A stretch of DNA of 64,000 nt from an uncultured bacterium (lineage in GTDB: Bacteria; Elusimicrobiota; Elusimicrobia; Elusimicrobiales; Elusimicrobiaceae). Position numbers and translations under genes: made by a program. This document shows, one piece after another, positions 8,857 to 29,183 of this stretch (position 1 is the first letter of the stretch; each line of letters opens with the position of its first letter). The stretch lies in the NCBI GenBank assembly GCA_949291515.1, contig CASEVY010000006.1, positions 1 to 64,000 of the forward strand. Direction: 5' to 3'. The notes under the pieces were generated by a model, which worked only from the letters and a program-made list of their open reading frames with translations, did not search any database and was not told where the DNA came from.

Positions 8857-10128
8857 TTATTTATAACTTTCTATGATGTCGTAAGTATCCATAAATCCCA
8901 TCTGTACGGCGACGGTGGCCGCGTCAAGTTTTTGACGGTTTTTAAGCCTGGGGCTCGCACCGTTGTCCAATAAGAACTTTACCATTTTTTGGTCGTCGTT
9001 TTCCGCGGCTATGAACAGTACGCTGTCGCCTTTATTGTTTCTGGCGTTAATGTCGGCGCCCTTAGCTATGAGATTTTTTATCAGTTGTTCATTATTTGCT
9101 CTTACCGCATAAAACAAAGCCGTTTCGCCTTTTAAATCCACCGCGTTGACGTTGGCGCCGTTTTCTATAAGGAAAAGCGACATATCGTTCATATTGCCGG
9201 AATTGGTGCCGGACTGTTCTATAAGGCTCATTAAAACGGTCTGTCCTTTGGTATTAAGCTGGTCGATATTTGCGCCAGCCAAAAGTATCATTGTTACTAT
9301 TTCTTTGTTTCCGCTTAAAGCCGCGGCGGTCAGTACCGGGTTGCCCTGTGCATCGGTCTGATTGGGGTCGGCTTTGGCCGTATCAATAAGAAGGGTAATC
9401 ATATCTCTGTCGCGTTCTTTGATGGCTTTTTCCAAAGGCGGAAGAGAATCCGTTATGTCTATGCCGTTTTTTGCGGCGTATTCAATAAGAAGTTTTGTCG
9501 TTTCCGAATCGTTTGATTCTATCGTTTGCGCCAAGTAGTTTGTTGTGGAAGAAAAGAGTATTGAAGCGTCCGCCCCGTTCTGCAAAAGCAGCGGTACGGC
9601 TTTTTTGTTTCCGTTTTCTAAAGCTGCTTCCAAAGGCAATTTGCCGCCAATGCTCGGTTTGTTGAAGTTGACTTCTCTTTCCGCCAGGAACTGCAAGATC
9701 GGCAAACCGTTAGTCCTGTCTGAAGCCGCCAAATAGGCCAAAGTTAAGTCATTAGTAGTTCTTTTTATGTTGTTGTAGAGGAATTTACCTTTCGGCAGAC
9801 TTTCGCGGAAAGCCAGCAGGTTTTCCATATCCTGCAGACTTAAATATGCTTCCGGGTTAATATGATTTTCGTCTACTTGCTTCTTTATAAATCCCAAATC
9901 GTTTTTGACTGCCGCGTTGATCAGATCCGCCTGAAGTTTGGTATCGGGCAGTTTGTATTGCGGTTTTACGCATTTGCATTCTGGATAATCCGTTCTGATT
10001 TCCCAAGATTTGCAAGTATTGGTGCAGACTTTGGGCGCCTCTTCTTGTTTTGGAGCTTCTTTCTTGCCGCAAGCGCTTGAAATTAAAGCAAGAGCGCATA
10101 ATAAAGAAAATATATATAAATTTTTCAT
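8857..10128 (-). CDS. Ankyrin-repeat lipoprotein
   Basis: 423 residues. A type II signal peptide with lipobox SSAC puts the lipidated Cys near residue 20. A short Cys-rich linker (CTNTCKSWEIRTDYPECKC) follows with four closely spaced cysteines that could form disulfides. Ankyrin repeats run from about 130 to the end, e.g. GKLPLEAALENGNKKAVPLLLQ and NKGDSVLFIAAENDDQKMVK. It would be an envelope protein that binds other proteins; the partner is unknown. A clear AGGGGA ribosome site precedes the ATG. A second ankyrin protein with a membrane anchor is encoded at 11.3 kb. Confidence 0.9.
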   Translation of the reverse strand: MKNLYIFSLLCALALISSACGKKEAPKQEEAPKVCTNTCKSWEIRTDYPECKCVKPQYKLPDTKLQADLINAAVKNDLGFIKKQVDENHINPEAYLSLQDMENLLAFRESLPKGKFLYNNIKRTTNDLTLAYLAASDRTNGLPILQFLAEREVNFNKPSIGGKLPLEAALENGNKKAVPLLLQNGADASILFSSTTNYLAQTIESNDSETTKLLIEYAAKNGIDITDSLPPLEKAIKERDRDMITLLIDTAKADPNQTDAQGNPVLTAAALSGNKEIVTMILLAGANIDQLNTKGQTVLMSLIEQSGTNSGNMNDMSLFLIENGANVNAVDLKGETALFYAVRANNEQLIKNLIAKGADINARNNKGDSVLFIAAENDDQKMVKFLLDNGASPRLKNRQKLDAATVAVQMGFMDTYDIIESYK

Positions 10129-11265: not shown

Positions 11266-12201
11266 TTAACTTAACAAAATCCTTATGCAAGAAGTGCAGT
11301 CATAGCTTTTGGCATAATCCAAAGCGGTGCGTTGATTGTTGTCCGTCAATTCTTCGTTGGCGCCGGAGTCTATAAGGAAGCTCATTATATTTCCCTTATG
11401 CTCTTGTGCAGTTATCATCAAAGGCGTCATACCTTCTTTTTGTGTTCCTTGGTTGATGTCGGCGCCATATTCAAGGAGCACCTGTATCATTGCGTTTGCC
11501 GGGTATGGGGCGGAGGCGGTATAATTTTCCCCCGTTACCGCGCGATGTATTGGGGCATAGCCTTTGTCGTCGTAGATATCCATAGAGGCGCCTTGCTCTA
11601 TCAGCATTCTGAGCATATCTTCGCTTCCGTTTGATATCGCCATAAAAATAGGCGTGAATGATGTATTTTTTTCAGGTGAGTTTAACGGCGCGCCTCTGTT
11701 TATCAAAGCCATCGCTTTGGGGATATCGTCGAAGTATACGGCGTCCATAAGTTCGCTGAAAAGCTCGTCTTTAGTCATTTTTTTATTGCGATACTCGTTT
11801 TCAAACGCGATGACCTGTTTCTTTTGCCTTTCTTTCAGGAAGTACTTCCTTTTGTCTTCTTTTGCCGTCTGACTGACGGTGTTTTGTTCCGTACTGCCGC
11901 CCGTAATATCCAGATAGTTATGCTGCGCGCTGCCGTCTATAAAGACTTCGTCTATGGTTTCCTCATTGTCTATAGAAGGCTGATAAGTGAAATTGGCGTC
12001 CTTATCCTCTTCTTCTGGCTGGTTTTCCGGCTGGTTTTGCGGCTGCGGCGCCGGTGCTGTCGTTGTGGAATATACCGTCATACCTACAAGTTCTTCCACC
12101 TCGGAAGATTGCTGCTTTCCGCTTTTTGTCAGAGTGTTTACGAAACCCCATATTACTCCAACTGCACAAAGGGCTATTATAACTTTAAGTATCGTACGCA
12201 T
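11266..12201 (-). CDS. Membrane-anchored ankyrin-repeat protein
   Basis: 311 residues. One N-terminal transmembrane helix (about 5-22, LKVIIALCAVGVIWGFV), then a low-complexity acidic linker rich in Pro, Gln and Glu (PAPQPQNQPENQPEEEDKD, about 52-70), then ankyrin repeats from about 150 (DIPKAMALINRGAPLN, YAPIHRAVTGENY, EGMTPLMITAQEHKGN, QRTALDYAKSYDCTSCI). It would present the repeat domain outside the inner membrane. It is a single gene with a terminator on its downstream side. It shares the fold but not the lipobox of the other ankyrin protein in the window. Confidence 0.88.
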   Translation of the reverse strand: MRTILKVIIALCAVGVIWGFVNTLTKSGKQQSSEVEELVGMTVYSTTTAPAPQPQNQPENQPEEEDKDANFTYQPSIDNEETIDEVFIDGSAQHNYLDITGGSTEQNTVSQTAKEDKRKYFLKERQKKQVIAFENEYRNKKMTKDELFSELMDAVYFDDIPKAMALINRGAPLNSPEKNTSFTPIFMAISNGSEDMLRMLIEQGASMDIYDDKGYAPIHRAVTGENYTASAPYPANAMIQVLLEYGADINQGTQKEGMTPLMITAQEHKGNIMSFLIDSGANEELTDNNQRTALDYAKSYDCTSCIRILLS

Positions 12202-13914: not shown

Positions 13915-13978
13915 ATAGATAGAAGAAGTGTAATTTTAACGGTAAATATTTATATTGTTGGCGAAAACGGTGAAAATT

Positions 13979-16900
13979 ATGAATAAAAAAATTATGTCGG
14001 CAAGTATGAAGATGTTATCTTTAACTTTAAGCGCCGTGCTTATATTTGAGAGCAGCGCTCCTCTTTACGCTCAGTCTAAAATAAGATATGAGGGTGATAA
14101 GCGTACGATATATTTCAAGAGCGATAAACTTTTGGATAGGAAACTTGAAATGGTCGCTCCTGCGGATAATACGAGAGTCGCGCAACGCCCGTTCTTCAGG
14201 CCGGCGCAGATGGACAATCCTGCTTGGAAAAAAGCGGAAGGAATAAAGTTTGAGCTTCTTTTCGGGTCGCAGATGGGATCCTCCAAGGGCAAGACTTCCG
14301 AAAGCGTTTCTTCCGAACCGTTAAATTATAAACAGTTTTACGCCGAATACGCCAAAGACGTAAATTCTCAGGCCGATAAATATAAGAAAGACAATGAAAA
14401 CTTTAAGAAGCAGGCCTTGCTGGAAATGAATTTACAGGCGGAGAAATACGCCTTAAGCGGAGAATATTCCGAAGCCGACATCGCCGCTTGGAAAGAACAG
14501 GAAAAGAAAAATATAGATCAATGGCTGAAGAATGCGCAGGCGGAGATGGAAAAAGTCCGCCATGCGGAGTTGTCTAAAGCCGAAAGCAGATTTAAGGAAT
14601 ATCAGGCCGCAATAGAAAGCGAAACGGACGCTTATAATAAGGAAATATTTTATACCGTACAAGGCAAAATACGGGAATTGTTTGCCTTATATAAAAGCAA
14701 TCCCGGCGCCGACGCCGGCATAGCGCCCATTTTGCTGGAAACCGTTCCTCTTTTTATCCCGATGACTTATAACGGCGAGAAGCTGCTTAACCAAGAACAG
14801 GAAAACGTAATATTCGATTTGGCCTTAAAGCAGCTTGACAGGCCCATAACTTTACAAACCAAAAATGTAAATCAATATATATCCGCCATAACGGTAGTGG
14901 CAAATTTGGGCAAAGTTGGGGACGGCGGTTCTACCGCCATTAAGAGAATGGTATTTTCCAGCGTGGAGGCTCCGCAGTTCCATGCCTATTTGCTCCTTAC
15001 GGCGGTATCGGCGCTGCTGGCCTTAAAAGATTACGGCACTATAAGGGATATTTTAAACTATTTCAACCAAAAAGAATCCGTATTTGAGACGGTGGACTTC
15101 CTCAGCGTGGCGAACTGGGTGGATTATTTCCAAACGATAAACGGCAAATATTTGGGGAATATGTCGTCTTTGGCGCAGTATCAGTTGGAAGACGGCACGA
15201 TTGCCAACGCCTATACCGATATCGCTTTAATGTTGGCGGAGGAAGGCAGTCCCCAGGCTTTGGAATTGCTTAAGAATTTCGGCGTAGACAAATGCGTAAT
15301 GACGCTTGATTTCGCGTTTAACCTTAAAGATCATTTCTCCCCCCGCTGCGGCGGCATAAAACCTTTCGTCGCAGGGGCGTTAATGAGCGGCAAAGCCGGC
15401 GCGGAAAAATATTCCGGTCCGTTTTTGAGCAAGCGCGTCGGTCAGCAGGAATTTACTTCCGACGGGCGCGTAAGAACGATAACGTCTGACGAAGTGAATA
15501 GGATATCCTCTGCGATAAACACCAATATGAGCAGATTTCAGGCCGGACTGAAAGAAAGCGGAATAAGCGCCAACGCTTATTTGGCTTTGAATTTGATAAA
15601 CGAATCGCTCGGCGATATAGGAGTTGGACAGGAATCTTTTATAGATACGGCAATGCTCAAGCAGTATAAGAGCGAAATATCCAACACAATGCTTGGCAAA
15701 GGCGCGATAGTAGACGACGCCAGAAGATCAAGCAAGGAAAGCGGCCAAACGATATATAAATACGCCAAAATTACCGGCAATGTTTTGGATATAGGCATAT
15801 TGGTATGGTGTGCGTGGGACTTGGCGAAGCTGGCCAGAGGCATATATTCTTTAGGGCGCGGCGCTTATTCCGCTTTTAGGTTGTCAAGGATAGGAACTCC
15901 CGCTCAGAGAATGGCCTATATCACCAATCACTTGCCGCACTTGCGCAAATATTCGTCCGTAGGCAAAGCGATGACGAGGTTCTCCGCCCGGGTCAAGAAC
16001 GGGATAGAACCTGTCGTGATGGCGCAGAGATCTTTGTATACGTCGGCGCCTCTTCCCAAGATTATGGGAGTCGGCTCCGAAGGCACCACCGTCGCAAAGA
16101 CTTTGGCTACGGCTTCTTTCGACGCGGCCAAAGGCGGATACGTTATCAATGCGGCTGAAGCGTATAAATCTTCCGCCGGGCAGCCCGGCAGAGTGTTGGA
16201 TATTGTCAACACGAGAAAGGCTTTGGACGCAGGTACGGCTTCCGCGCAAGAGGCTTTTGCAAACAGGGGCTTCTTCGAAAAATACAGAGGTTATAGAGGT
16301 TATCTTTCCGATGCTACGAAGGAGGCTTTCAATGCCGGTAAATTTGACAGCTATTCTTTATCGGCCGGGATCGATTTCTCCAACGATATTTCTTTGGCCA
16401 GAAACGTAAAGTGGAGAGCGCCGGTAACTTCCACTAACGTAAACTATTTGGCCAGACCTTTGGGCACTTCCGCCTTGCCGGGAACTTTGGAGCTGCATCA
16501 CAGGAGCGCGGTCGGTTTGGACGCGGAACCTTTGCCGGTAAATATAACTATCGAGAAGAAAATCCCAACCATTAAATCCAACGAGGTTACCAATGTCCTT
16601 TTAACCGGCGAAGACGACGTAATGCTTTCCATAACCAAGCAGCAGAAACTGCCTTTCTATTACAGGTGGATGTCGAAAGCGGCGGATTCCAAATTAATGC
16701 CGCAGAGCTGGTCCAACGGAATAGAGAGATGGGTAAGCAATTGGCGTGCGGAAAAGGAATTTAAACTTGTTGACCCCGATTTCTTTAAGATAGGCATAGA
16801 TAATGAAAGTTTTGCGAATTTGGCAAAAATGTCCTATGCCGGCTCCACTCCTTTGAACCTCAAGTTTATGGGCGAGCGTACGGGCTTTGCCGGAAAACTC

Positions 16901-18871
16901 GGCGGTTGGTTTACCAACTCTTTCGCCGGGAAGAAGAGCTTATTCCCGGGTACCGGAACGGTGTTCGTAAAAGAAGGCGAACTGCTGAGGCCGACTTCGA
17001 TAAAACTTTCCACGCAAAAACCTTTCGACGGAATACAGCTTATAGTAAACGAGAACAATACCCTTTCCCTGCTTGGCAGAAGCGGCAGCGGCGCAATGAG
17101 GGGTTTGGACGTTCCGTTCTCATTGTCTTTGCCTAAAGGCGAGTTGGATAATTTCCTCAAATATGCGGTTAACGGCAATTTCAATAATCCGTTTAATCTC
17201 TCGCTTACCGGCGCGAGGAATAAACTCAATACTTTGTTTGCGGTACAGTTCTTGTCTTTAAGCGCGGCGTCGACCAGCTTGGTGGGTCCGTTAAGACAAA
17301 ACTATCCCGACATATCCAATACCGAAGTTGCGTTAATATCGATAGTATTGCCTTATGCGTCGAGCTTCCTCTCTCCGTTCTGGGCTCCGTTTGTTAAGAG
17401 ATACGGCTCCGCGAATATGGTTAAGGCGAGTTTGGGGTTGGCGGGTCTTTCTCTTACGTTGCCTATGTTCTCCGGTTTCCACGGATTTGGCGACGTAAAT
17501 TATATGAACCCGAATAAACCCTCCATCGCTCCGCTTCTTATCAGCGGTACTTTGATAGGTTTGTCTTCTTCGATAACCAGAGCGTCGTTTAACCCTCTTA
17601 TGGATAAAATGGGCGGCGGCGCGGGCCTGCTGAAAGGTATGGCTTTCAAGAATTTAAGCTCCTTTGCGATGTTGGCGCCTTCCTTGGGTGCGGCTTTGTG
17701 GGATGCGGCCGATCCCAGGTATTATACGGACGCAAACGGCAATTTCCTTTTGAATGACAAAGGCGAAAAGATATTGCATTCCCATACCGACTTCTCGCTC
17801 TACAATCCGTTGTTGCTGGCTATTACCGGCGGCGTATTCCTGGCGTTCCAATCGGCTCGTATGCCGGCCCAGATAGGCAGGGTCAAAGGTTATACGATGT
17901 CGCAGTTTGCCAGGGGCGTAAACGGTACAAATATGTTTGCCAGAGGATTTAACAGCGTTTACAGACCCGTTGCGGGCACACTGGCCGAAACCTGGAATGC
18001 GACTAAAGTTCTGGGCAAAAAAGGCGTTTGGCCGATAGCTTTGGCCTCGACAGCGGCTTTGGGCGTGGAGTCTTCGCTGCTTTACAACTACAGCCAAACA
18101 GAGTCCAACAGATATACGGGCAACTATATTTCCAATGAAGCGGTTAAACCCGTAATAGCCACTTTGGCTTTGACGATACCGCCATTCTTGGTGAGGCTCG
18201 AATCCAAGCCTATACTTAGACTCTTTGGCGGAGCGGATAACCCCGCTACCTACAAACGGCTTATAGGTGCGTCCTTGGGTGCGGCGGCGGCCGGTACGGC
18301 GTTATTGGCTACTGAGGATAATATGGCGACATTTATACCCGGTATGGCTTTGGTGGGTATGGGTTTTGCCAATACGACTAACGGCCTTTTGAAGATAGGC
18401 GAATATAATCTTAAGGCCGCTAAGGCTACTTCCAGTATGCTTACCGGCTATAAGGTAGCCTATCCAGGCGTGCATATAGGTATGGCGATATTCCCCAAAA
18501 TGTTCAGCAGTGCGGCCGATGAAGATTTGAAGAACAATCCCGATATGGAAAAATATGAGGCCCTGCAGAATAATATATGGATACCCGCTTTGACTTTGGG
18601 CGGCTCGGCTTTCTTCTACGGGCTTGGATCGGGTTTCTTCAAGTTTAACTCTTTACCTAAGCCTTCGCTTAAGATACCTACGGGATTGCCTGCTCTTACA
18701 AGGTTCACTATAGGCACTCCTTCGGCTATGATGCAAGATTGGAGAGACAACGGTCTGTTCCTCAATAAAAATTTGGGAACCGTTGAAGGGACAACCCCCT
18801 CCTCCGAGTTAAAAGATACATTGAATGACGAGGCCGAAGAGTCTGCGGAAACGCCCGCGGCCGAAGAATAA
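13979..18871 (+). CDS. Giant secreted-solenoid/MFS-like membrane protein, copy 1
   Basis: 1630 residues; I know of no named family with this architecture. A signal peptide ends near residue 33 (LYAQS). Then come a charged coiled-coil region (about 100-220), helical repeats (about 220-560), a hydrophobic segment (VLDIGILVWCAWDLAKLA, about 605), a beta-rich region (about 700-1070) and an MFS-like region of about 12 hydrophobic helices (about 1080-1555). A degenerate motif A is seen as APFVKRYGSANM after the second helix. The acidic tail ends EESAETPAAEE. Copy 2 downstream matches it along most of its length, best in the membrane part (AVQFLSLSAAST, LVGPLRQNYP). The ATG at 13979 has GGTGA eight bases upstream, conserved in copy 2; the upstream TTG at 13955 is rejected. 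A periplasmic sensor or scaffold fused to a transporter-like anchor is conceivable, but function is unknown. Confidence 0.85.
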   Translation: MNKKIMSASMKMLSLTLSAVLIFESSAPLYAQSKIRYEGDKRTIYFKSDKLLDRKLEMVAPADNTRVAQRPFFRPAQMDNPAWKKAEGIKFELLFGSQMGSSKGKTSESVSSEPLNYKQFYAEYAKDVNSQADKYKKDNENFKKQALLEMNLQAEKYALSGEYSEADIAAWKEQEKKNIDQWLKNAQAEMEKVRHAELSKAESRFKEYQAAIESETDAYNKEIFYTVQGKIRELFALYKSNPGADAGIAPILLETVPLFIPMTYNGEKLLNQEQENVIFDLALKQLDRPITLQTKNVNQYISAITVVANLGKVGDGGSTAIKRMVFSSVEAPQFHAYLLLTAVSALLALKDYGTIRDILNYFNQKESVFETVDFLSVANWVDYFQTINGKYLGNMSSLAQYQLEDGTIANAYTDIALMLAEEGSPQALELLKNFGVDKCVMTLDFAFNLKDHFSPRCGGIKPFVAGALMSGKAGAEKYSGPFLSKRVGQQEFTSDGRVRTITSDEVNRISSAINTNMSRFQAGLKESGISANAYLALNLINESLGDIGVGQESFIDTAMLKQYKSEISNTMLGKGAIVDDARRSSKESGQTIYKYAKITGNVLDIGILVWCAWDLAKLARGIYSLGRGAYSAFRLSRIGTPAQRMAYITNHLPHLRKYSSVGKAMTRFSARVKNGIEPVVMAQRSLYTSAPLPKIMGVGSEGTTVAKTLATASFDAAKGGYVINAAEAYKSSAGQPGRVLDIVNTRKALDAGTASAQEAFANRGFFEKYRGYRGYLSDATKEAFNAGKFDSYSLSAGIDFSNDISLARNVKWRAPVTSTNVNYLARPLGTSALPGTLELHHRSAVGLDAEPLPVNITIEKKIPTIKSNEVTNVLLTGEDDVMLSITKQQKLPFYYRWMSKAADSKLMPQSWSNGIERWVSNWRAEKEFKLVDPDFFKIGIDNESFANLAKMSYAGSTPLNLKFMGERTGFAGKLGGWFTNSFAGKKSLFPGTGTVFVKEGELLRPTSIKLSTQKPFDGIQLIVNENNTLSLLGRSGSGAMRGLDVPFSLSLPKGELDNFLKYAVNGNFNNPFNLSLTGARNKLNTLFAVQFLSLSAASTSLVGPLRQNYPDISNTEVALISIVLPYASSFLSPFWAPFVKRYGSANMVKASLGLAGLSLTLPMFSGFHGFGDVNYMNPNKPSIAPLLISGTLIGLSSSITRASFNPLMDKMGGGAGLLKGMAFKNLSSFAMLAPSLGAALWDAADPRYYTDANGNFLLNDKGEKILHSHTDFSLYNPLLLAITGGVFLAFQSARMPAQIGRVKGYTMSQFARGVNGTNMFARGFNSVYRPVAGTLAETWNATKVLGKKGVWPIALASTAALGVESSLLYNYSQTESNRYTGNYISNEAVKPVIATLALTIPPFLVRLESKPILRLFGGADNPATYKRLIGASLGAAAAGTALLATEDNMATFIPGMALVGMGFANTTNGLLKIGEYNLKAAKATSSMLTGYKVAYPGVHIGMAIFPKMFSSAADEDLKNNPDMEKYEALQNNIWIPALTLGGSAFFYGLGSGFFKFNSLPKPSLKIPTGLPALTRFTIGTPSAMMQDWRDNGLFLNKNLGTVEGTTPSSELKDTLNDEAEESAETPAAEE

Positions 18872-18900
18872 AATTGTAAGCTGCATACCAAGAAGTTTTA

Positions 18901-18934
18901 AAAATTCCCCGGCTAATACCGGGGAATTTTTTGT
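18901..18934 (+). terminator. Terminator of giant gene copy 1
   Basis: AAAATTCCCCGG pairs with CCGGGGAATTTTTT around CTAATA, 30 bases after the stop. Confidence 0.9.
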
Positions 18935-18983
18935 GAGGCTATCATATCGCTTGGGCCCGCTTTTGGAAGATATTGCTAATATG

Positions 18984-19029
18984 GAAAATATATTTTGACA
19001 ATGATTGTATCATTTCAAAATATATTTTC
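18984..19029. repeat. Long AT-rich inverted repeat between the two giant genes
   Basis: GAAAATATATTTTGA (18984-18998) is perfectly inverted at 19015-19029. The 16-base centre holds a second dyad, AATGAT-TGT-ATCATT, so almost the whole 46 bases folds back on itself. It lies after the copy 1 terminator and about 90 bases ahead of the copy 2 operator. There is no T run as in a terminator. It could be a protein-binding site, a cruciform or a remnant of a small mobile repeat. No gene is seen in the 18872-19236 gap. Confidence 0.7.
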
Positions 19030-19117
19030 TTTTTTCCGCAAAGCCGCAAAATGGCATATTTGCAAAAAACGGTTTGTGAAAGTATAGAGGGCGCCGATAG
19101 TATATTATCGCCTCGGT

Positions 19118-19185
19118 TGGGCCTTAAGTCCTAATTGTCAATGGGTCCAAATTCTCTTGTGTCAAGTCTTGCTTGCTGATATAAT
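19118..19185 (+). promoter_or_regulatory. Promoter with degenerate dyad operator, second giant gene
   Basis: TGGGCCTTAAGTCCTA (19118-19133) is the counterpart of the copy 1 dyad. It is followed exactly 23 bases later by TTGTGT (-35, 19157-19162), a 17-base spacer and TATAAT (-10, 19180-19185) with an extended TGn. TGGG and CTCTT are conserved at the same offsets as in the copy 1 promoter. Confidence 0.75.
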
Positions 19186-19236
19186 GATAGTAAGGAGTAG
19201 AAGGTTTTATTGTTTTTTAAAACGGTGATAATTATT

Positions 19237-22200
19237 ATGAATAAACATATATATGTTATTAGCAAAAAATCAATATCGATGATATTATCCGGGGTGTTGC
19301 TTTTCCAATGCAGCGTTCCGGCGATGGCATTAGAATATAATGCTTTAGCGCAGAGCTCAGAGGCTCTTGAACTTGACGCTAAAATAGACGGCGCTTATAT
19401 TAAAGAGAATACTTCCGCCGGCCAATATGACGCCGTAATTAAGCAAGAAGTCGCCAAGCAGAAAGAGATAATAAAACCTTTGGCCAACAAATTGGCCGCA
19501 TATAGAAAAGCCGGTGATGTAAAATATAAGAATAATCAATTGAAGTCAGCGACATATGCAGGCCTTGCCGGAGTAAACACCATTGGCAAATTGAACTATG
19601 AATTGAAAAGATTTTTAGCCGGGTTTTATGCTCAGCGTTCCATAATGCCGTTTAAGGAATTTAAAAAACAATACGACAAATATATATCGCAAGAGGCCGA
19701 AAAATACGCTAAAGAAAACAACTACACCTCTCCCGCTCCTTTTAAGACCCGCGGCGGTGCGATAGTGGCTGAAATTGAAAGACTCTATCCCGCCAAAACG
19801 ATGTATAACGATTATGTAAAAATAGCGAAGAAAGAACTGAACTGGTATAAAGCGAACAAGAGCAAACTGGACGAAGCCGCATACCAAGTGCTTAGAGAAT
19901 ACGTAAAGGCTTTTGGCGTAAATATGGACTATGAAGCCGCTCGTATATTGTTAAATTTGAAGATAAACAATAAAGATGTCGTCACCGTTGCCGAAAAACA
20001 AGAACTTTACATATATGTAACAAACAGAATAAAAGAATTGGACATCAAATCCGTATTTGACATAACGGTTTTAAACAGCAATAAGAAGGCAAAAGCGAAG
20101 GTTGCCGGCAAGATGCTCCAAGATACGATAGAGTTGATAATGTTGGGAGCGTATGTTGCGCCCTATAACGATACGGCTTATGCCGACGCGGTAGTATCTT
20201 TGATAAACAAGAGCAACGATACGGCGGCGTTTCCGCATCTTCTCAATGCCGGTTTTTCGGCTTTATTGGCAACGAAACGCTATGACAAATTAAATACGCT
20301 TTTGGCGCAATATACTGATATGGAAGCCAAGGGCGCCTCTTTCGTAGACGCGCTTTCCTTCCAGTTTATAGTTGATTCCATAAATGAAGTTCAAGGCAGA
20401 TATTTACGCGGACGCGCTTCCAAAGCCGCGCAATATAGCACTCAATACGGATACGGCAACGCTTTTGAAGATATCGCAAAACTTTTGGCTGATGAAGGCT
20501 CTCCAAAGAGTTTGGCTTTGTTAAAGAAATACGGGGCGGAGAACAATGGCGCGATAACGCCGTTTTTGGCTGGCGCCGTATTAAGCGGCAAATCGGGAGC
20601 CGCGCCTACCCTTGCGGCCCAGAAGGCTGGGTTGTCGCCGGACGCGTTTTTGGCATTGAAGCTAGCCAATGCCAGTATGGCAGATTTGACGGCTACGCAA
20701 GAAAGCGATTTGGATAAGGCATTATTGCTAAAATATCCTGAGATAAAGTCCCATTTGGGCGAAGGCGCCATAATAAATGAAGCCCGTAAAAAATCAAAGG
20801 CAAATTCCCGTTTGTTTTATGACTATGCTAGCAAAGCCGCCACAGCTGGCGACATAGCTTTTATGGTATGGGCTACATTCGATTTGGTAAGACTTGCCGG
20901 AAAAGCCGTCTCTTTGGGCAAAGCAACTTATACCGCAATTCAGCTTTCTAAAATTACCAATCCCGCGGTAAGGGCGAGCAAAGTTTTGGGCAATATGTCC
21001 AAGATAAGGCCTTATGTTTCCGCGAGGCTTGCGCTTAGAGGTTTTTCAGGTCGTGTTAAAGGCGCGATGGCAGGCGTTGTTTTGGGCCAAAGGCATTTAT
21101 ATACTTCAGAGGCTTTGCCAATGGTAGCTGGCGGCGGCAGCGCGAATACGACAGTGGCCAAGGCTTTGGCTACCACCTCTTTTGATGCCGGCAAAGGCGG
21201 TTTGGCGATAGATAAGGCCGCCGCATATAGGGCTTCCGCCGATACTCCAAACAGGGTTTTGGATATAATGAATACTCAGAGAACTTTAGACGTCGCCAAT
21301 GCCAACGCGACGGAGAAATTCTTTGCCAAAAGTTTCTTTGAGAAATATAAAAGGTATCCCAACATATTGGCGAAAGAAACCAGGAACGCTTTCCGCGAAA
21401 GCAAGTTTAGGGGCCGCAATTTTGAAGCGGGAATGGATTTCGGATATAACTTGAAGAGTTTTGTTCCCGGAATACAAACCCCAGAAAGATCTTCCGCGAT
21501 GGCCCATATAAATTGGCTTTCCAGGCCGTTGGGTACGACCGCTAAAACTTCCGGCTCTTTGGAGCTTTTCTACAGAAGCACCGCGGCAGAAGATCCTACG
21601 CCGCTGCCGGTAAACATAACTTTAGGCGGGAAGAAAATCCCCAACATTAAAGCCGATAAAGTCAGCAATGTGTTGTTGACGGGCAAAGAAAATGCGGCTT
21701 TCAAGTTGTCTTTCGAGCATGAAAATGTTCTTGTCAATCCTACCTTCTTCAAAGTCGGCTTGGATAATGAGAACTTTGCCAATTTGGCCAGACTTACGGT
21801 TGGCGGAACGCAGGAACTTAAGATAAAATTCCTGGCGGAGCATACGAGCCCTTGGGCTAAAGTTAAGAACTGGACCTTGGACTTGTTTAGAAATAAGGAA
21901 AAATTATTCTCAGGTACCGGCACCGTTTGGATAAAAGAAGGAACGACCTTAAAAGCTACGCCCATAAAACTTTCCACCCCCAAAGATTTCAACGGCGTAA
22001 AAGTGGTAATTAACGAAAACAACAATATCGTTTTGCGCGGAAGGAATAAGCTCGGCGTGCCTACCACTTTTGATTATCCTTATTCCTTCTCCATACCGAA
22101 GGGTGAACTTTCCCACTTTACGCAATATGCCAAATTGGGTAATTTTAATAATCCTCTTAACATCACGCTTAACGGCGCAAGAGACAAGGTAAATACTTTG

Positions 22201-23925
22201 TATGCCGTACAGTTCCTTTCGCTTAGCGCGGCGTCTACTGGTCTTATCGGGCCTTTAAGACAGAACTATCCGGAGATGAGCAATACTCAGGAATCTTTGA
22301 TAACCGTAGCTTTGCCTTATCTTCCCAGCTTCTTGTCTCCGTTCTGGGCGCCTTTCGTCAAGAGATTCGGTTCCGCAAATATGATGAAAGTGAGCTTGGG
22401 TCTTGCGGCCGGTTCTTTGGCGCTGTCTACCGCGACCGGATTTGGCGGTTGGAGCGACGCCAACATCTACAATTTGGACAAACCGTCCTTGACACCGCTT
22501 CTTTTCAGCGCCGGATTTATAGGCTTGTCTTCTTCTCTGACTAGAGCCGCGTTTAACCCGCTGATGAAAGAAATGGGCGGCGGCGGCGGATTGCTCAGAG
22601 GTATGATGTATAAGAATTTAAGCTCTTTTGCAATGCTTTTGCCACCTGCGGTTTTCACGATTTGGGACGCTGTTGATACCCGCTACTATACCGATACCGG
22701 TAAATTGGACGGCAATCCTATCGTATTCCAAGGCGAGAACGTTTACGGGACGGACGGTTCTCTTGTAATTGCAAAAGGTCAACCTATCGTTGACAAAGAC
22801 GGTTTGCCTTTAAAACACAGTCATGTCGACTTCTCGATATCCAATCCGGTGCTTTTGGGTATAACCGCTGCCATTTTGTATAAATTCCATACGGCTCGTA
22901 TGTCCAGGCAGATCGGTGCGGTTCCTGACTATAAACTTGGCCAATCGATAAAGCCTTTGGCAGGCAATTCCAAATTCATGTATTATTTCAACAATAACTT
23001 CTACAGACCTACTTTCGGCGTGTTGAAAGAAAGCGTGAATTCCACAAAGGTAATGTTCAGAAAAGAAGTGTGGCCTATAACGGCGGCTGGCTTTGGCGCC
23101 TTGGGCGTGGAGGCTTCGCTATTCAACAAGTACAGCCAGAACGAAGCCAACAATTATCTTACTGACGCGCATTTCTTGGGAATAAATGTGGGAGATCCGG
23201 TTCTCAGGCCTATAGCCGCAACTTTCTTGCTGGCGGTGCCGCAATTCTGGGTCAGATATAAATCCAAACCTTTGATTGCCAAACTCGGCGGAGAGGCCAA
23301 CCCTCTTACTTATAAGAAACTCATTGCATTGTCTTTGGGCTCGGCGGCTGCCGGTACGGCGCTGTTGGCGACGGAAGATAACTTCTGGACTTTTGCGGCT
23401 GGTATGTCGTTGCTGGGTATGGGTTTTGCCAATACGACTAACGGCTTCCTGATGATTGGCGAAAACAACCTTAAACGCGCAAAAGTGGCGGAGAGTGTTC
23501 TTACGGATTGGAAAGTGGCCTATCCTGCGGTACATGTCGGTATGTCTTTAATACCGTTGGCGCACAACTATGTTTCCGATAAGGAAGTAGAAAAGAATCC
23601 CGAAGGCGTCACAAAACTGCAGGCTATGCAGAACAATATTTGGATACCTGCCGCGGTATTGGGCGGTACGGGTTTGGGATTCCTTAAGGGTGCGGACCTG
23701 ATAAAAGCCGGCCGCGTAGCCAATATGTTTACCCCGATTAAACACGGTGCGGCGATGAGTGTTCCCTACTTTATGCTGGACAGGTGGAACCACGAGTTGT
23801 TCAAACCGAACTTTACGCCTAATTTCGCTCAGCCTAATTTCGATTTCAAACCTTTGGGCGTACCGGCTTATAATTTGAACACGATAAATACTTCTTCCTT
23901 AGAAGTGGAAGGCATCGAAAAATAA
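19237..23925 (+). CDS. Giant secreted-solenoid/MFS-like membrane protein, copy 2
   Basis: 1562 residues, tandem paralogue of the gene just upstream. The signal peptide ends near residue 33 (VPAMALEY). Helical, Lys/Glu-rich repeats follow to about 510, then a hydrophobic segment (GDIAFMVWATFDLVRLAG, about 540), a beta-rich region to about 980 (NVLLTGKENAAFKLSF, GTGTVWIKEGTTLKATP) and an MFS-like domain of about 12 helices (about 982-1490). Conserved blocks shared with copy 1 include QRHLYTSEALP, SFDAGKGG, NPLMKEMGGGGGL, KNLSSFAML and GMGFANTTNG. The N-terminal half is more diverged than the membrane half, which suggests the solenoid changes faster. The ATG at 19237 has GGTGA with the same spacing as in copy 1. 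Function is unknown; retention of both copies next to each other argues for distinct roles. Confidence 0.85.
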   Translation: MNKHIYVISKKSISMILSGVLLFQCSVPAMALEYNALAQSSEALELDAKIDGAYIKENTSAGQYDAVIKQEVAKQKEIIKPLANKLAAYRKAGDVKYKNNQLKSATYAGLAGVNTIGKLNYELKRFLAGFYAQRSIMPFKEFKKQYDKYISQEAEKYAKENNYTSPAPFKTRGGAIVAEIERLYPAKTMYNDYVKIAKKELNWYKANKSKLDEAAYQVLREYVKAFGVNMDYEAARILLNLKINNKDVVTVAEKQELYIYVTNRIKELDIKSVFDITVLNSNKKAKAKVAGKMLQDTIELIMLGAYVAPYNDTAYADAVVSLINKSNDTAAFPHLLNAGFSALLATKRYDKLNTLLAQYTDMEAKGASFVDALSFQFIVDSINEVQGRYLRGRASKAAQYSTQYGYGNAFEDIAKLLADEGSPKSLALLKKYGAENNGAITPFLAGAVLSGKSGAAPTLAAQKAGLSPDAFLALKLANASMADLTATQESDLDKALLLKYPEIKSHLGEGAIINEARKKSKANSRLFYDYASKAATAGDIAFMVWATFDLVRLAGKAVSLGKATYTAIQLSKITNPAVRASKVLGNMSKIRPYVSARLALRGFSGRVKGAMAGVVLGQRHLYTSEALPMVAGGGSANTTVAKALATTSFDAGKGGLAIDKAAAYRASADTPNRVLDIMNTQRTLDVANANATEKFFAKSFFEKYKRYPNILAKETRNAFRESKFRGRNFEAGMDFGYNLKSFVPGIQTPERSSAMAHINWLSRPLGTTAKTSGSLELFYRSTAAEDPTPLPVNITLGGKKIPNIKADKVSNVLLTGKENAAFKLSFEHENVLVNPTFFKVGLDNENFANLARLTVGGTQELKIKFLAEHTSPWAKVKNWTLDLFRNKEKLFSGTGTVWIKEGTTLKATPIKLSTPKDFNGVKVVINENNNIVLRGRNKLGVPTTFDYPYSFSIPKGELSHFTQYAKLGNFNNPLNITLNGARDKVNTLYAVQFLSLSAASTGLIGPLRQNYPEMSNTQESLITVALPYLPSFLSPFWAPFVKRFGSANMMKVSLGLAAGSLALSTATGFGGWSDANIYNLDKPSLTPLLFSAGFIGLSSSLTRAAFNPLMKEMGGGGGLLRGMMYKNLSSFAMLLPPAVFTIWDAVDTRYYTDTGKLDGNPIVFQGENVYGTDGSLVIAKGQPIVDKDGLPLKHSHVDFSISNPVLLGITAAILYKFHTARMSRQIGAVPDYKLGQSIKPLAGNSKFMYYFNNNFYRPTFGVLKESVNSTKVMFRKEVWPITAAGFGALGVEASLFNKYSQNEANNYLTDAHFLGINVGDPVLRPIAATFLLAVPQFWVRYKSKPLIAKLGGEANPLTYKKLIALSLGSAAAGTALLATEDNFWTFAAGMSLLGMGFANTTNGFLMIGENNLKRAKVAESVLTDWKVAYPAVHVGMSLIPLAHNYVSDKEVEKNPEGVTKLQAMQNNIWIPAAVLGGTGLGFLKGADLIKAGRVANMFTPIKHGAAMSVPYFMLDRWNHELFKPNFTPNFAQPNFDFKPLGVPAYNLNTINTSSLEVEGIEK

Positions 23926-23939
23926 GTTCTGTTAAAAGA

Positions 23940-23973
23940 TAAAAAGGGCTGCCGTAAAAGCAGCCCTTTTTTA
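23940..23973 (+). terminator. Terminator of giant gene copy 2
   Basis: AAAAAGGGCTGC and GCAGCCCTTTTTT around CGTAAAA, 15 bases after the stop. The remaining 24000-24230 DNA has no gene I can support. Confidence 0.92.
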
Positions 23974-24255: not shown

Positions 24256-24990
24256 ATGCTTAATTTATACAGAAGATTAAAAAAAAGTGCTTATGCCCTG
24301 CTTAATGCGGGCTGGTTCGTAAGTTTTATATTGGTATTGATATTTATCAATATACCGCTGTCCATTTTTTCGCTCTCGGGCAGTTTGACGCCCGATGACA
24401 TCATCGCGATAGAATTTTGCGATTTATTTATAACGATAGTATTTTCGATAGAATATGTTTTAAGGCTTTGGACGGCTGACTTGTCGCCTTATTATAAAGG
24501 CAGCCGCATTCGTTTTGCCCTGCGGCCCGAGATGATTATAGACTTTTTGGCGATAGTTCCTATGGTTTATATCAATATAAAGCCTTTAAGGGCGTTAAGA
24601 TTTCTAAGGTTATTTAGGATACTTAAACTGGTGGAGTATTCTCAGCCTTTAAAAATGATGGTAAAGGTAATTTATCAGAATATGGACTCTTTGGTAACGA
24701 CGGCTTTTGTTATGGGTTTTTTGCTTACGATAAACTCGTTTTTGATATATTACTTTGAACACGCCGCCCAGCCCGAGGTGTTTAAAAATATTTACGACGC
24801 CATTTGGTTTACCGCAATGACTTTCTGTCAGGCGGGAGCGGACATATCGGTAGTAACGCAGGCGGGCAAGCTGTTAAAGATATTGACGGCGTTTTCGGGA
24901 ATAATGCTTTTTGCGGTATATTCCGGTATATTCTCGTCGGGATTTATGAACGCGCGCAAAGCCGCGAGGGAGAAGAAAGAAAATGCCTGA
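24256..24990 (+). CDS. Voltage-gated-type ion channel with non-canonical selectivity filter
   Basis: 244 residues of the ion-transport (VIC) superfamily with six membrane helices: S1 (about 18-40), S2 (about 50-75), S3 (about 90-110), an S4 sensor (LRALRFLRLFRILK, about 118-131, basic residue every third position), S5 (about 150-172), a pore loop and S6 (about 212-235). In potassium channels the pore loop reads TVGYGD; here the aligned stretch is MTFCQAGADISVVTQAGKL, so the K+ filter is missing. The protein may conduct another ion, be non-selective or act only as a sensor. GGGGG precedes the ATG. The stop overlaps the start of the MFS gene by eight bases, so the pair is an operon. Confidence 0.85.
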   Translation: MLNLYRRLKKSAYALLNAGWFVSFILVLIFINIPLSIFSLSGSLTPDDIIAIEFCDLFITIVFSIEYVLRLWTADLSPYYKGSRIRFALRPEMIIDFLAIVPMVYINIKPLRALRFLRLFRILKLVEYSQPLKMMVKVIYQNMDSLVTTAFVMGFLLTINSFLIYYFEHAAQPEVFKNIYDAIWFTAMTFCQAGADISVVTQAGKLLKILTAFSGIMLFAVYSGIFSSGFMNARKAAREKKENA

Positions 24991-26401
24991 TGGCGGCGGA
25001 TTTATAGAGAACTACACAAGAAACAGAACTTTTGCGTTTTTCATTGTGGTTATAGGCAATTTTATAGGCGCATTGGATTCCAGCGTCGTAAATATAGCTT
25101 TGCCCGTAATGTCAAAATACTTTAATGTCGGCCTGATAGAAATACAGTGGATAGTAACGATATATTGTTTGGGTATAGTAAGCATTTTGCCCATAAGCAG
25201 TAAGCTGGGCAACAAATACGGACAGAACAGGGTATACAGTTGGGGCTTTATGCTTTTTGGGTTAGGTTCGCTGCTATGCGCTTGCTCTACGTTTCTTTTG
25301 GCTTTGATAGTTTCTCGTTTCATACAGGCTTTGGGCGCGGCGATGCTTTTTGCCTTGGCGCAAGGCGTAGTTGCCAGTATGTTTACGGGAGTTAAGAGAG
25401 GCCAATTCCTGGGAATGATAGGCTCCGTAGTGGCTTTGGGCAATATAACTGGGCCGAGTTTGGGCGGAATGCTCTTGGACGCGTTCGGCTGGCAGTCTTT
25501 ATTTTACATAAATTTGCCTTTGGCGGCCTTTGGCGCGTATTTCGCGTATAAGACGCTGCCCAGCGTAAAAAGGCGCAAATTGGGTAAAATAAACTTAAAT
25601 TCCGCCATATTGTTTATAGCTTTGAGTATGTGTTTCTTTACGGCTCTTTCTTTGGCGGAGAAAGCGGGATTTACCAGCCCGCACATACTTTTGATGATAG
25701 GTATTTCGATAGTTTTGGGCATTGTTCTTTTCAGGCACGAGAAGCGCAGCAAAACTCCGCTTCTTAATTTAAGTTTATATTCCAATAAGGTATTCGCCTA
25801 CGGCAATATGGCGATGATGCTTGTATTCATATCAATAAACGTAAACGGGCTGCTTATACCGTTCTATTTGCAGGATATATACGGCTTAAGCGCATTTAAG
25901 ACGGGTACTTTAATTTTGTTTTATTCCGTTCCTTTGATAGTCGTCGCGCCGATAAGCGGGCGTTTGTCCGGCCAAATAGGGGCAAGGAAGCTGACGGTAT
26001 GTTCGATGATGGTTATGATTTGCGGTTTTTTATGGTATATGGGTCTTGGCAGCGAGTTTAAAGAGTATCAGATAATCGTAGGGCAGATTATATTGGGCAT
26101 AAGCAACGGTATGTTTAATTCGCCAAACAATAACAGCATTATGAGTGCGATAGAGCGAAAGTATTACAATGACGCGAGCGGTTTGAACTCTTTGGCGAGG
26201 AATACGGGTATAGTTTTGGGTGTCGCGCTTACGGTAAACATTTTTGACGCTTTGCTTAACTTCTTTCAAAACGGGGGGCGCTCCCATGCTGAGGCTTTTA
26301 TATCGGCTTATCACATAAGTTTGGGCTTGGCCATAATAACAGCCGCTGCGGCCGGCGTTCTTTCTTATTTGGGCAAGGAGCCGGACAAAAAACTGCTTTA
26401 A
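24983..26401 (+). CDS. MFS efflux pump, DHA2 (EmrB/QacA-like) family
   Basis: 472 residues with 12-14 predicted membrane helices. The DHA2 signature LDSSVVNIALPVM lies in the first helix (about residues 27-39), and the motif-A-like SSKLGNKYGQNRVYSWG follows. SRFIQALGAAMLFALAQG and GNITGPSLGGMLLD correspond to motifs B and C of proton antiporters. It would expel drugs or metabolites across the inner membrane using the proton gradient. No EmrA-type adaptor is adjacent. It overlaps the channel gene, suggesting coupled translation and perhaps a shared role in ion or proton balance (inference). A bidirectional terminator follows. Confidence 0.92.
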   Translation: MPDGGGFIENYTRNRTFAFFIVVIGNFIGALDSSVVNIALPVMSKYFNVGLIEIQWIVTIYCLGIVSILPISSKLGNKYGQNRVYSWGFMLFGLGSLLCACSTFLLALIVSRFIQALGAAMLFALAQGVVASMFTGVKRGQFLGMIGSVVALGNITGPSLGGMLLDAFGWQSLFYINLPLAAFGAYFAYKTLPSVKRRKLGKINLNSAILFIALSMCFFTALSLAEKAGFTSPHILLMIGISIVLGIVLFRHEKRSKTPLLNLSLYSNKVFAYGNMAMMLVFISINVNGLLIPFYLQDIYGLSAFKTGTLILFYSVPLIVVAPISGRLSGQIGARKLTVCSMMVMICGFLWYMGLGSEFKEYQIIVGQIILGISNGMFNSPNNNSIMSAIERKYYNDASGLNSLARNTGIVLGVALTVNIFDALLNFFQNGGRSHAEAFISAYHISLGLAIITAAAAGVLSYLGKEPDKKLL

Positions 26402-26417
26402 CTTTTGAATGCGAACT

Positions 26418-26454
26418 AAAAACCGCTTATCTTTCGGATAAGCGGTTTGTTTTA
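26418..26454. terminator. Bidirectional terminator between MFS pump and APC permease
   Basis: AAACCGCTTATC TTTC GGATAAGCGGTTT with T runs in both directions. It separates the convergent MFS pump (+) and amino-acid exchanger (-) genes. Confidence 0.88.
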
Positions 26455-27801
26455 ATTACGGCTTTTTTCTCTTTCTTTTTTTGCTTTTAAAAATATCGGT
26501 ATTCCTATCGCGAAGAATATAGCCGCCATAGCCAAGTATTTAAGATTTGCCGCATAAATAAGCCATAAAGCGTATATGGAGCCCAATACGCCTGTGATCA
26601 TTATTTTGCTTCTGCCGATGCCCCAGTCGCTTTTATAGTGCTTTTTGCGGCCGTTCTGCATCAGATATATGGTGGTTACCAAATAAGCGGGCAGAATCAT
26701 AACTGCGGTTATATTAAGCATAGTTTCCCACGCGTTGGCCGAGAAAAACGCTATGAAAAGTGCCGCTTGCATACATATCGTGGTGATGAGGAGCGAGAAA
26801 GTCGGCGCGGCGTTTTCGTTTTCTTTGGCGAAGGCTTTGGGGAAAGTACCCTCCTTTGCCGCGGCGTAAGGCGCTTCTATTGAGATCAACTCCCAAGAAA
26901 GCCAGGCAAACAGCACCGATATAATCAAGCCCAAATTCATTATAATCGCCCCCGCCTTGCCTATGGCCGCTTCCAGTACGCCCGCCGTAGATGGGTTGGC
27001 GTATGAGGCTATTTCCGCCCTGCTAAGGAACCCGAAAGGCAGCAGGGAAATCAACATATATACCCCCAAGCAGGATAAAAAGCCCAACAAAGTGGCTTTT
27101 GCCACGTCGCTTTGTCTTTTTGCTCTTCCCGATAACACCACCGCCGATTCTATCCCTATAAAGCACCACAGCGTTACCACCATAGTCGCGCGGACATTGC
27201 CCAAAAGTTCTTTAAAGCTGAAAGAACCAGATATAATATTGGCCGTCAGCGCCTCTTTGAAAACGTCCCACTTGAACATTACTAAAGCCGCGATGATAAA
27301 AAATATCAAAGGCATAGTTTTGGCTATCGTTCCAAACAGATTTACCAAAGCCGCAGTCTTTATGCCCTTTCTTATCAGAAACATAAAGGACCATATTATC
27401 AAGCTGGAAAGAAGAAGCGAATTTAAATTGTTCCCCCCCTCGAAATACGGCGGAAAGAAGTAATTTAAAGCCTCCATCATTATAACCGCCATCGCGATAT
27501 TGGAAAACACGTTGGAAAGCCAATAGCCCCAAGCGATAAAGAAGCCCGTCCTCTTCCCGAAGCCGTCTTTTGCGTAAGCGAAAATGCCCGCCGTAAGTTT
27601 CGGCTTGATATTGGATAATATTCTAAAAGTTTCCGCTATAAAGAACATACCCAGCCCGGTAATTATCCACGCCGTAAGCACGGCGTCGGCCGGTGCGGAC
27701 GCGGCCATATTCTGCGGAAGCGAGAATACGCCCGATCCCATCATGGAGCTTACCACAAGCCCGCAAAGGCCCGCGATGCCTAATTTCATTGATGCTTTCA
27801 T
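26452..27801 (-). CDS. APC-family amino-acid exchanger (arginine/agmatine or arginine/ornithine type), copy A
   Basis: 449 residues with about 12 membrane helices. The substrate-binding segment SSMMGSGVFSLPQNMA in helix 1 corresponds to the GSGVF motif of AdiC/ArcD/AaxC antiporters. NYFFPPYFEGGNNLNSLLLSS is shared almost exactly with the neighbouring copy and with the aaxC-like gene at 47.4 kb, so all three are paralogues. The ATG at 27801 lies in an ATGA overlap with the stop of the upstream copy and has AGGGA ahead of it; the longer frame to 27834 is rejected. It probably exchanges a cationic amino acid for its product. The exact substrate cannot be read from the sequence. Confidence 0.9.
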   Translation of the reverse strand: MKASMKLGIAGLCGLVVSSMMGSGVFSLPQNMAASAPADAVLTAWIITGLGMFFIAETFRILSNIKPKLTAGIFAYAKDGFGKRTGFFIAWGYWLSNVFSNIAMAVIMMEALNYFFPPYFEGGNNLNSLLLSSLIIWSFMFLIRKGIKTAALVNLFGTIAKTMPLIFFIIAALVMFKWDVFKEALTANIISGSFSFKELLGNVRATMVVTLWCFIGIESAVVLSGRAKRQSDVAKATLLGFLSCLGVYMLISLLPFGFLSRAEIASYANPSTAGVLEAAIGKAGAIIMNLGLIISVLFAWLSWELISIEAPYAAAKEGTFPKAFAKENENAAPTFSLLITTICMQAALFIAFFSANAWETMLNITAVMILPAYLVTTIYLMQNGRKKHYKSDWGIGRSKIMITGVLGSIYALWLIYAANLKYLAMAAIFFAIGIPIFLKAKKEREKSRN

Positions 27802-29183
27802 TTTATTCCCTTTCTTTGTTTGGCGGCGGCCCAATATACGGGTATGCCCGCGGCGAAGAATATTACCGCCATCGCCAAATATTTAAGATTTGCCGCGTAT
27901 ATCAGCCATAAAGAATATATTATCCCAACAGAACCGATAAATATCGCCTTAGGCCTGCTGACGTTGCACGTCCGGCTGAACTTCTTTTTGCGCGATATTT
28001 TAAACAAGTATAAAGTGGTTATAAAATATACCGGCAGTATCATTACGCTGGTTATGCTGAGCATAGTATTCCAAGCGTCGGCCGAGAAGAAGGCTATCAA
28101 AAGCGTTATTTGTGTGGTAATAGTCGTTATCAAAAGCGAAAATACCGGCACTTCTTTCTTGTTCTCTTTCAAGAATATTTTGGGATATAATCCCTTGCCC
28201 GCCGCGCTGAAGGGCACTTCCGTCGATATTATAACCCAAGACAGCCAGGAAAACAGAACCGATACCATAAGGCCCGCTATCATTATCAGCCCGCCCGTCT
28301 TGCCTATTATTTGTTCAAGCACGCCCGCGGTAGACGGATTGGGAAAGGCCGATATTTCCCCTCTTTGCAGTATCCCCAAAGGCAGCAGCGATATAAGTAT
28401 GTAACATATCAGACAGATAAAAAATCCGCCCAAAGTGGCGCGAGAAACGTCCTTTTGGCGTTTGGCCCTGCTGGATAATACCACCGCCGTTTCCACACCG
28501 ATAAACGCCCATATCGTAACAAGCATTGTATTTTTGACTTCCGCCATCATAAACGAGAAGCTGAACTCGGGCGAATGTATGGTGCTTAAGACATCGGTTT
28601 TTATAATTTCCCAGTCAAATGCAAGCAGACACACCGCTATGAAAACGAATACGGGCACCAATTTAAAGCAAGTGCCTATAAAATTTACTATCGTGGCCGT
28701 TTTTATCCCTCTGCGGATCAGAAAGAAAAACAGCCATATTATCGCGCTGGAAAGAAGAAGCGAATTTAAATTGTTCCCCCCCTCGAAATACGGCGGAAAG
28801 AAATAATTTAAAGCCTCCATCAATATTACGGCAAGCCCCGTATTGGCGCATATATTGCAAAGCCAGTATCCCCACGCTATAAAAAAACCCGCCCCGGGGC
28901 CGAAGCCTTCCTGCGCGTAGGAATATATCCCCGAAGCCATTTCCGGTTTGATTTTTGCCAAAAGATGAAAAGTATACACTATGCAGAACATTCCCAGCCC
29001 GGTAATCAGCCAAGCCGCTATTATTGAGGCCGCACCCGCACCCTGCGCCATATTTTGCGGCAGGGAATATACGCCTGAGCCTATCATAGAACTTATCACT
29101 ACTCCTATTAAACCCCAAAGACTGAGTTTAACGGTATAATTTTTATCTGTTTTTACTGCCGCTTCATCGGGATACTCTTTCAT
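27798..29183 (-). CDS. APC-family amino-acid exchanger, copy B
   Basis: 461 residues, first gene of a two-gene unit with copy A (four-base ATGA overlap). SSMIGSGVYSLPQNMAQGAG in helix 1 and EVPFSAAGKGLYPK in a later loop are typical of basic-amino-acid antiporters. GVETAVVLSSRAKRQKDVSRAT marks the conserved helix 6-7 region. A weak GAGAG ribosome site precedes the ATG. The leader contains a terminator-like hairpin (29214-29240), so expression may be controlled by attenuation. With copy A and the aaxC gene, the window encodes three related exchangers, suggesting dependence on amino-acid exchange for energy or pH control. Confidence 0.9.
   Translation of the reverse strand: MKEYPDEAAVKTDKNYTVKLSLWGLIGVVISSMIGSGVYSLPQNMAQGAGAASIIAAWLITGLGMFCIVYTFHLLAKIKPEMASGIYSYAQEGFGPGAGFFIAWGYWLCNICANTGLAVILMEALNYFFPPYFEGGNNLNSLLLSSAIIWLFFFLIRRGIKTATIVNFIGTCFKLVPVFVFIAVCLLAFDWEIIKTDVLSTIHSPEFSFSFMMAEVKNTMLVTIWAFIGVETAVVLSSRAKRQKDVSRATLGGFFICLICYILISLLPLGILQRGEISAFPNPSTAGVLEQIIGKTGGLIMIAGLMVSVLFSWLSWVIISTEVPFSAAGKGLYPKIFLKENKKEVPVFSLLITTITTQITLLIAFFSADAWNTMLSITSVMILPVYFITTLYLFKISRKKKFSRTCNVSRPKAIFIGSVGIIYSLWLIYAANLKYLAMAVIFFAAGIPVYWAAAKQRKGIK

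Follow-up and report, generated by a model that had tools for sequence, protein, structure and literature searches.

We describe here a family of giant proteins in which, very probably, a membrane domain derived from the major facilitator superfamily (MFS) ends a chain whose front is exported. Two of its genes lie side by side in the stretch of DNA analysed (hereafter the window; 64,000 nucleotides), which comes from a gut genome of the Elusimicrobiaceae (1.5 Mb, 13 contigs). We tentatively consider the encoded proteins as putative exported receptors or scaffolds, coupled to an MFS-derived transport or sensing domain at the inner membrane.

Copy 1 (13979..18871, forward strand) encodes 1630 aa from its ATG or 1638 aa from an in-frame TTG at 13955, and copy 2 (19237..23925, forward strand) encodes 1562 aa from its ATG or 1571 aa from a TTG at 19210, the TTG starts being situated 8-9 codons upstream of the ATG in both copies. 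The first-pass annotation had reported two adjacent ORFs of 1630 and 1562 codons, lengths and coordinates that are correct for the ATG starts. A frame error or assembly artefact was ruled out by full-length orthologs in other MAGs, that of copy 1 in L023 being 85% identical. The two copies are probably transcribed separately, and a single operon is unlikely, because a terminator-like hairpin followed by a T-run (18903..18934, forward strand; spotted by eye and absent from the computed hairpin list) lies between them. Another terminator-like hairpin, taken from the computed list, was located 3' of copy 2 (23941..23971, forward strand).

Each protein starts with a predicted signal peptide, as had been claimed, composed of a basic stretch, a hydrophobic core and an AxA-type site, which recurs in almost all relatives. 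Cleavage is predicted after ...SAPLYA in copy 1 (13979..14071, forward strand) and after ...SVPAMA in copy 2 (19237..19329, forward strand), with the pattern kept in relatives. It is followed by the exported N-half, which is alpha-rich and variable in copy 1 (14072..15766, forward strand; delimited by the family HMM, identity and dN/dS) and matches the family HMM at E 2e-257 in copy 2 (19330..20850, forward strand), copy 2 itself being among the sequences used to build the model. Next come a conserved hydrophobic helix, a middle alpha/beta region and a 12-helix domain that was delimited by hydropathy, profile matches and loop charges (17225..18640 in copy 1 and 22195..23709 in copy 2, both on the forward strand).

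Between the two copies, amino acid identity amounts to 55.7% in the membrane half, 50.7% in the beta-rich part and 32.7% in the front half, in agreement with the earlier view that the membrane half is better conserved than the exported one. All parts of the giants are under purifying selection: comparisons of the window with L023/L022 gave dN/dS values of 0.04-0.07 for the MFS domain, 0.055 for the neighbouring emrB and 0.10-0.19 for the front half (dN roughly 3-8 times higher), these ratios being rough since dS is near saturation. Variable specificity of the front half is plausible; diversifying selection was not demonstrated, the N-half evolving faster yet under purifying selection. The long helical repeats, or solenoid, previously proposed for this half are unproven, as neither a repeat family nor a structure was matched. 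A Pfam search on 21 N-halves returned only scattered matches, all of them sub-threshold, and thus gave no grounds for assigning them to HEAT, TPR or any other repeat family.

The assignment of the C-terminal domain to the MFS, made in the first-pass annotation from about 12 hydrophobic helices and a motif A, held at the profile level. Twelve hydropathy peaks were counted in the alignment of this domain (13 sequences). The Pfam MFS_1 model matched the window copies at E 0.077 (copy 1) and 0.011 (copy 2), both under the cut-off (33.4 bits), and 7 of the 16 close-family domains at E<=0.1; among more distant relatives, L085 exceeded the cut-off with 40.4 bits and L087 marginally so with 33.6. A profile of the family (35 sequences) aligned at E 1.1e-6 with one built from genuine MFS proteins of the same genome, as against 0.34 with an APC-transporter control. 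When the family HMM was searched against 326 ORFs (200-800 aa) taken from the studied loci, the best match outside the family was a genuine stand-alone MFS (L099), collinear over HMM positions 44-434 and covering both halves of the domain, and APC proteins scored about zero. L099 itself matches the gluP, TsgA, fucP and NagP models, each below cut-off. For the window copies, no match to gluP or fucP, the models used for FHS sugar:H+ symporters, was listed at E<=1. We thus take homology of the C-terminal domain to the MFS as established by profile comparison, the nearest protein tested being the sugar-type L099. Elsewhere in the studied loci, an MFS_1 domain was found in a 1158-aa open frame that runs past the locus edge (L106, G000:C4:2290-3381), possibly a fusion of the LplT-acyltransferase type.

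The two-fold repeat test (hhalign, helices 1-6 against 7-12) was not significant (E 0.066; reversed control, 0.2). Of the checks suggested along with the first-pass annotation, structure prediction was carried out on two proteins and a Foldseek search on one of the models. AlphaFold yielded pLDDT 33.9 for copy 1 (residues 590-1612, six-sequence alignment) and 41.7 for the MFS domain of the third protein described below; both models were unusable, which leaves the MFS fold without structural confirmation. Foldseek on the low-confidence model of the third protein gave a non-significant best E of 0.36, many of the top matches being MFS proteins. Profile searches of the PDB with the N-half, middle and MFS alignments retrieved two short, trivial matches but no relatives.

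The motif A noted previously is partly present: the G and R/K are retained and the Asp is absent in 35/35 family sequences, none of which contains the canonical GxxxD[RK]xG[RK]. In copy 1, the motif-A-like sequence PFWAPFVKRYGSANM (17375..17419, forward strand) bears a Lys in place of the canonical Asp. Among the 12 genuine MFS encoded in the genome, just 3 contain the strict pattern, so this motif is not universal in MFS. Other positions are strongly conserved, i.e. Arg1414 (35/35 domains), G1151 (34/35), an acidic residue (Glu/Asp) at position 1372 in TM7 (33/35; Glu1372 of copy 1 in the TTG numbering, 18068..18070, forward strand) and a Pro in the 1243 column (28/35). The mean KD hydropathy of the 12 helices is 1.33 +/- 0.11 in the family (1.32 and 1.25 in copies 1 and 2) versus 1.81 +/- 0.14 in the 12 genuine same-genome MFS, the lowest of which (1.56) lies above both copies. 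This low helix hydrophobicity is real and family-wide, and may mark a retuned membrane domain.

These features bear on the strongest competing explanation, a possible one, according to which the domain is an MFS-derived anchor that has lost transport and only serves to fix the exported part, a receptor or an adhesin, to the inner membrane. Such an anchor would fit the loss of the motif A Asp in all members, the weakly hydrophobic helices, rich in Ser, Ala, Gly and Pro, and the fact that other paralogs join this exported half to unrelated C-termini. However, a single TM would suffice for anchoring, the TM7 acidic residue and Arg1414 are near-invariant, and dN/dS is as low as that of EmrB. The near-invariant TM7 acid and the EmrB-level purifying selection make a functional membrane domain more likely, in our view, than one that only anchors. 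We thus prefer, with reserve, an exported receptor or scaffold coupled to MFS-derived transport or sensing, and the anchor follows closely.

The same plan extends well beyond the tandem pair. A third protein of the window (49492..54216, reverse strand; 1574 aa), overlooked by the first reading, comprises an MFS-derived domain (49657..50865, reverse strand; Pfam MFS_1 E 3e-6, under the cut-off) and a hydrophobic helix (52498..52554, reverse strand; KD 1.85, C-flank net +10), and the profile of its group aligned over 365 columns with that of the tandem group (E 8e-14). An EpsL/PEP-CTERM-associated-type outer-membrane protein is encoded near this third gene (55481-56608, forward strand). At least four more giant relatives are encoded elsewhere in the genome, i.e. 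L012 (2028 aa), L013 (1609 aa), L014 (2357 aa) and L025 (1673 aa), which brings the giants of this 1.5 Mb genome to at least seven.

An HMM of the front half recovered 36 proteins and revealed paralogs that carry a kinase or protease C-terminus on this exported half, a feature unseen in the first reading. Two such paralogs (L013 and L077) end in a Zeta_toxin/AAA_33 P-loop kinase; that of L013 (3661-8490, reverse strand) is C-terminal and has an intact Walker A (GGPNGSGKT). L094, from another genome, stops soon after the same Walker A and is possibly truncated. Trypsin-like domains were found in other front-half members, including L014 (4005-11078, forward strand), which combines the exported half with a trypsin-like domain, matched in two stretches, at residues 1094-1241. 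L025 is related and has a trypsin-like domain, but falls outside the front-half HMM matches. Next to the L014 giant, on the opposite strand, lies a divergent ORF of 985 aa with a signal peptide, and the same neighbour occurs at L076. In G018, a genome of the same family assembled as one contig of 1.64 Mb, one protein combines MFS-like and trypsin-like matches (L070, 43-9663, forward strand; part of a 3968-aa open frame). As paralogs carry a kinase or a protease instead of the MFS domain, the plan does not depend on transport.

Of 150 genomes surveyed across the phylum, 31 were found to carry the MFS-like domain and 23 the front half, both being confined to one family and to 3 of the 58 genera. 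The protein family is therefore lineage-specific, restricted as far as tested to three genera of Elusimicrobiaceae, and no relatives were found in viral contigs. Close relatives keep the gene order pyk-[one or two giants]-channel-emrB. Since L058 and L055 carry one giant at this locus, the tandem pair is a gain or loss variant. In the window, the Ion_trans-type channel gene (24256-24990, forward strand) overlaps the start of that of the EmrB-like MFS (24983-26401), and this pair is kept beside giant genes in relatives. Near the tandem genes, two ankyrin-repeat proteins are encoded on the reverse strand (8857-10128 and 11266-12201), their synteny being kept and their sequences evolving faster than pyk. 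The window also encodes three paralogous APC basic amino acid/polyamine antiporters, two of them adjacent (26452-29183, reverse strand) and one at 47353-48825 (forward strand).

This modularity could be read as a private toolbox of giant envelope proteins in gut Elusimicrobiaceae, where a single receptor-like exported half is paired with exchangeable outputs (MFS, P-loop kinase or protease) and the MFS domain is either a ligand-controlled output or exported to act elsewhere; we regard this broader scheme as speculative and somewhat doubtful. Still less probable is a modular, polymorphic-toxin-like effector, whose common front would deliver an MFS domain, a zeta-type kinase or a trypsin-like peptidase. 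The diversity of C-termini on one exported half, the intact kinase P-loop of L013 and the presence of several paralogs in each genome speak for it. However, no small immunity-like gene lies directly after the tandem pair, which is trailed by terminators and then by the conserved channel-emrB pair; synteny is conserved, the positive-inside pattern detailed below suits the inner membrane of the producer, and the C-terminal domain, unlike the tips of polymorphic toxins, is large and better conserved than any other part of the protein.

Topology was assessed from loop charges and from the hydrophobic helix. In 16 sequences, the mean net charge ranged from +2.2 to +5.4 in the N-flank, loops 2-3, 4-5, 6-7, 8-9 and 10-11 and the C-flank, and from -1.9 to +0.4 in all odd loops. 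This alternation over 13 loops implies that the 12-helix domain would be N-in/C-in with the long 6-7 loop inside; by prediction, it displays the MFS arrangement of 12 TM, N-in/C-in, with positive inner loops and a long 6-7 loop. If the domain is N-in, the stretch preceding helix 1 should be cytoplasmic. In nearly all members, the exported half is closed by a hydrophobic helix (KD about 1.3-2.3) whose C-flank is positively charged (net +4 to +10 in most). This helix, near residue 615 in copy 1 (15770..15826, forward strand; KD 1.35, C-flank net +6) and 558 in copy 2 (20854..20910, forward strand), is proposed to cross the membrane from out to in. In the copies, an Asp lies within this helix and an approximate dG scale does not classify the segment as TM, so the crossing is put forward as our inference. 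Based on the N-in charge bias and this conserved helix, we suggest that only ~565 (copy 1) and ~510 (copy 2) residues are exported, rather than the ~1000 of the first-pass annotation, and that the beta-rich middle region is cytoplasmic (15827..17224 in copy 1, from domain order and charge bias, and 20911..22194 in copy 2, both on the forward strand). The initial interpretation is retained for an MFS domain ending signal-peptide-bearing giants with a variable front, and revised as to the exported length, with the solenoid unproven.

The weak hydrophobicity of the helices could alternatively mean that the whole chain is exported by Sec, its helices failing to insert, and that the MFS-like domain acts elsewhere (periplasm, outer membrane or a foreign membrane). 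The family-wide values, below those of 12 same-genome MFS, and a dG scan that found no strongly inserting helix in the copies are in line with such export; the charge alternation in all 13 loops and helices far above soluble controls (KD at most 0.9) argue against it, so that export past the inner membrane is the less likely meaning of the low hydrophobicity, and this explanation as a whole is very unlikely. That the domain is a soluble helical bundle resembling MFS by chance, as low hydrophobicity and the lack of a confident structure model might suggest, is scarcely credible, since the family profile aligns collinearly with a genuine MFS and not with the negative controls, some relatives pass the Pfam cut-off, and the loop charges alternate.

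Under the preferred reading of a receptor or scaffold coupled to an MFS-derived domain, the signal peptide would be cleaved and the ~510-565 exported residues would be periplasmic or surface-exposed and may bind a ligand or a partner. The hydrophobic helix would return the chain inward, leaving the alpha/beta part in the cytoplasm ahead of the N-in/C-in MFS domain. The latter would move a small solute, possibly of the sugar type, or might instead sense a solute and couple the exported half to the cytoplasmic middle through conformational change. The tandem copies have the membrane module in common, and their front halves diverge. If true, the family adds a receptor-coupled or output-module use of the MFS fold, and the presence of so many giants in a small, probably host-associated genome suggests a role in gut life.

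Most known MFS proteins are compact carriers of 400-600 residues. With the sugar-type L099, the giants have in common 12 collinear helices, a long 6-7 loop, alternating loop charge and the motif-A-like Gly and Arg; they differ in lacking the motif A Asp, in less hydrophobic helices, in the window copies' own Pfam score, which is under the cut-off, and in the addition of ~1000 N-terminal residues with a signal peptide. MFS fusions with soluble parts are known, i.e. the LplT-Aas type, SV2 and the extracellular domain of PepT, and combine an MFS with an extra domain as the giants do. In these fusions the added part lies in the cytoplasm or forms an internal loop, whereas that of the giants is a signal-peptide-bearing front common to kinase and protease paralogs. 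Elusimicrobiota are rich in huge unannotated proteins (PMC11573180), which resemble the giants in phylum, great length and poor characterisation; as far as consulted, that survey deals with proteins above 5000 aa and gives neither an Elusimicrobiota domain plan nor an MFS link. In the open-licence literature, we found no description matching this architecture, consistent with the earlier statement that no described family has this plan, and it appears to be a new architecture of a known fold. Finally, polymorphic toxins (PMC3482391) share with the giants a common exported front and exchangeable C-terminal modules, but the giants have no immunity gene after the tandem pair, their C-terminus is conserved and membrane-embedded, and their synteny is kept.
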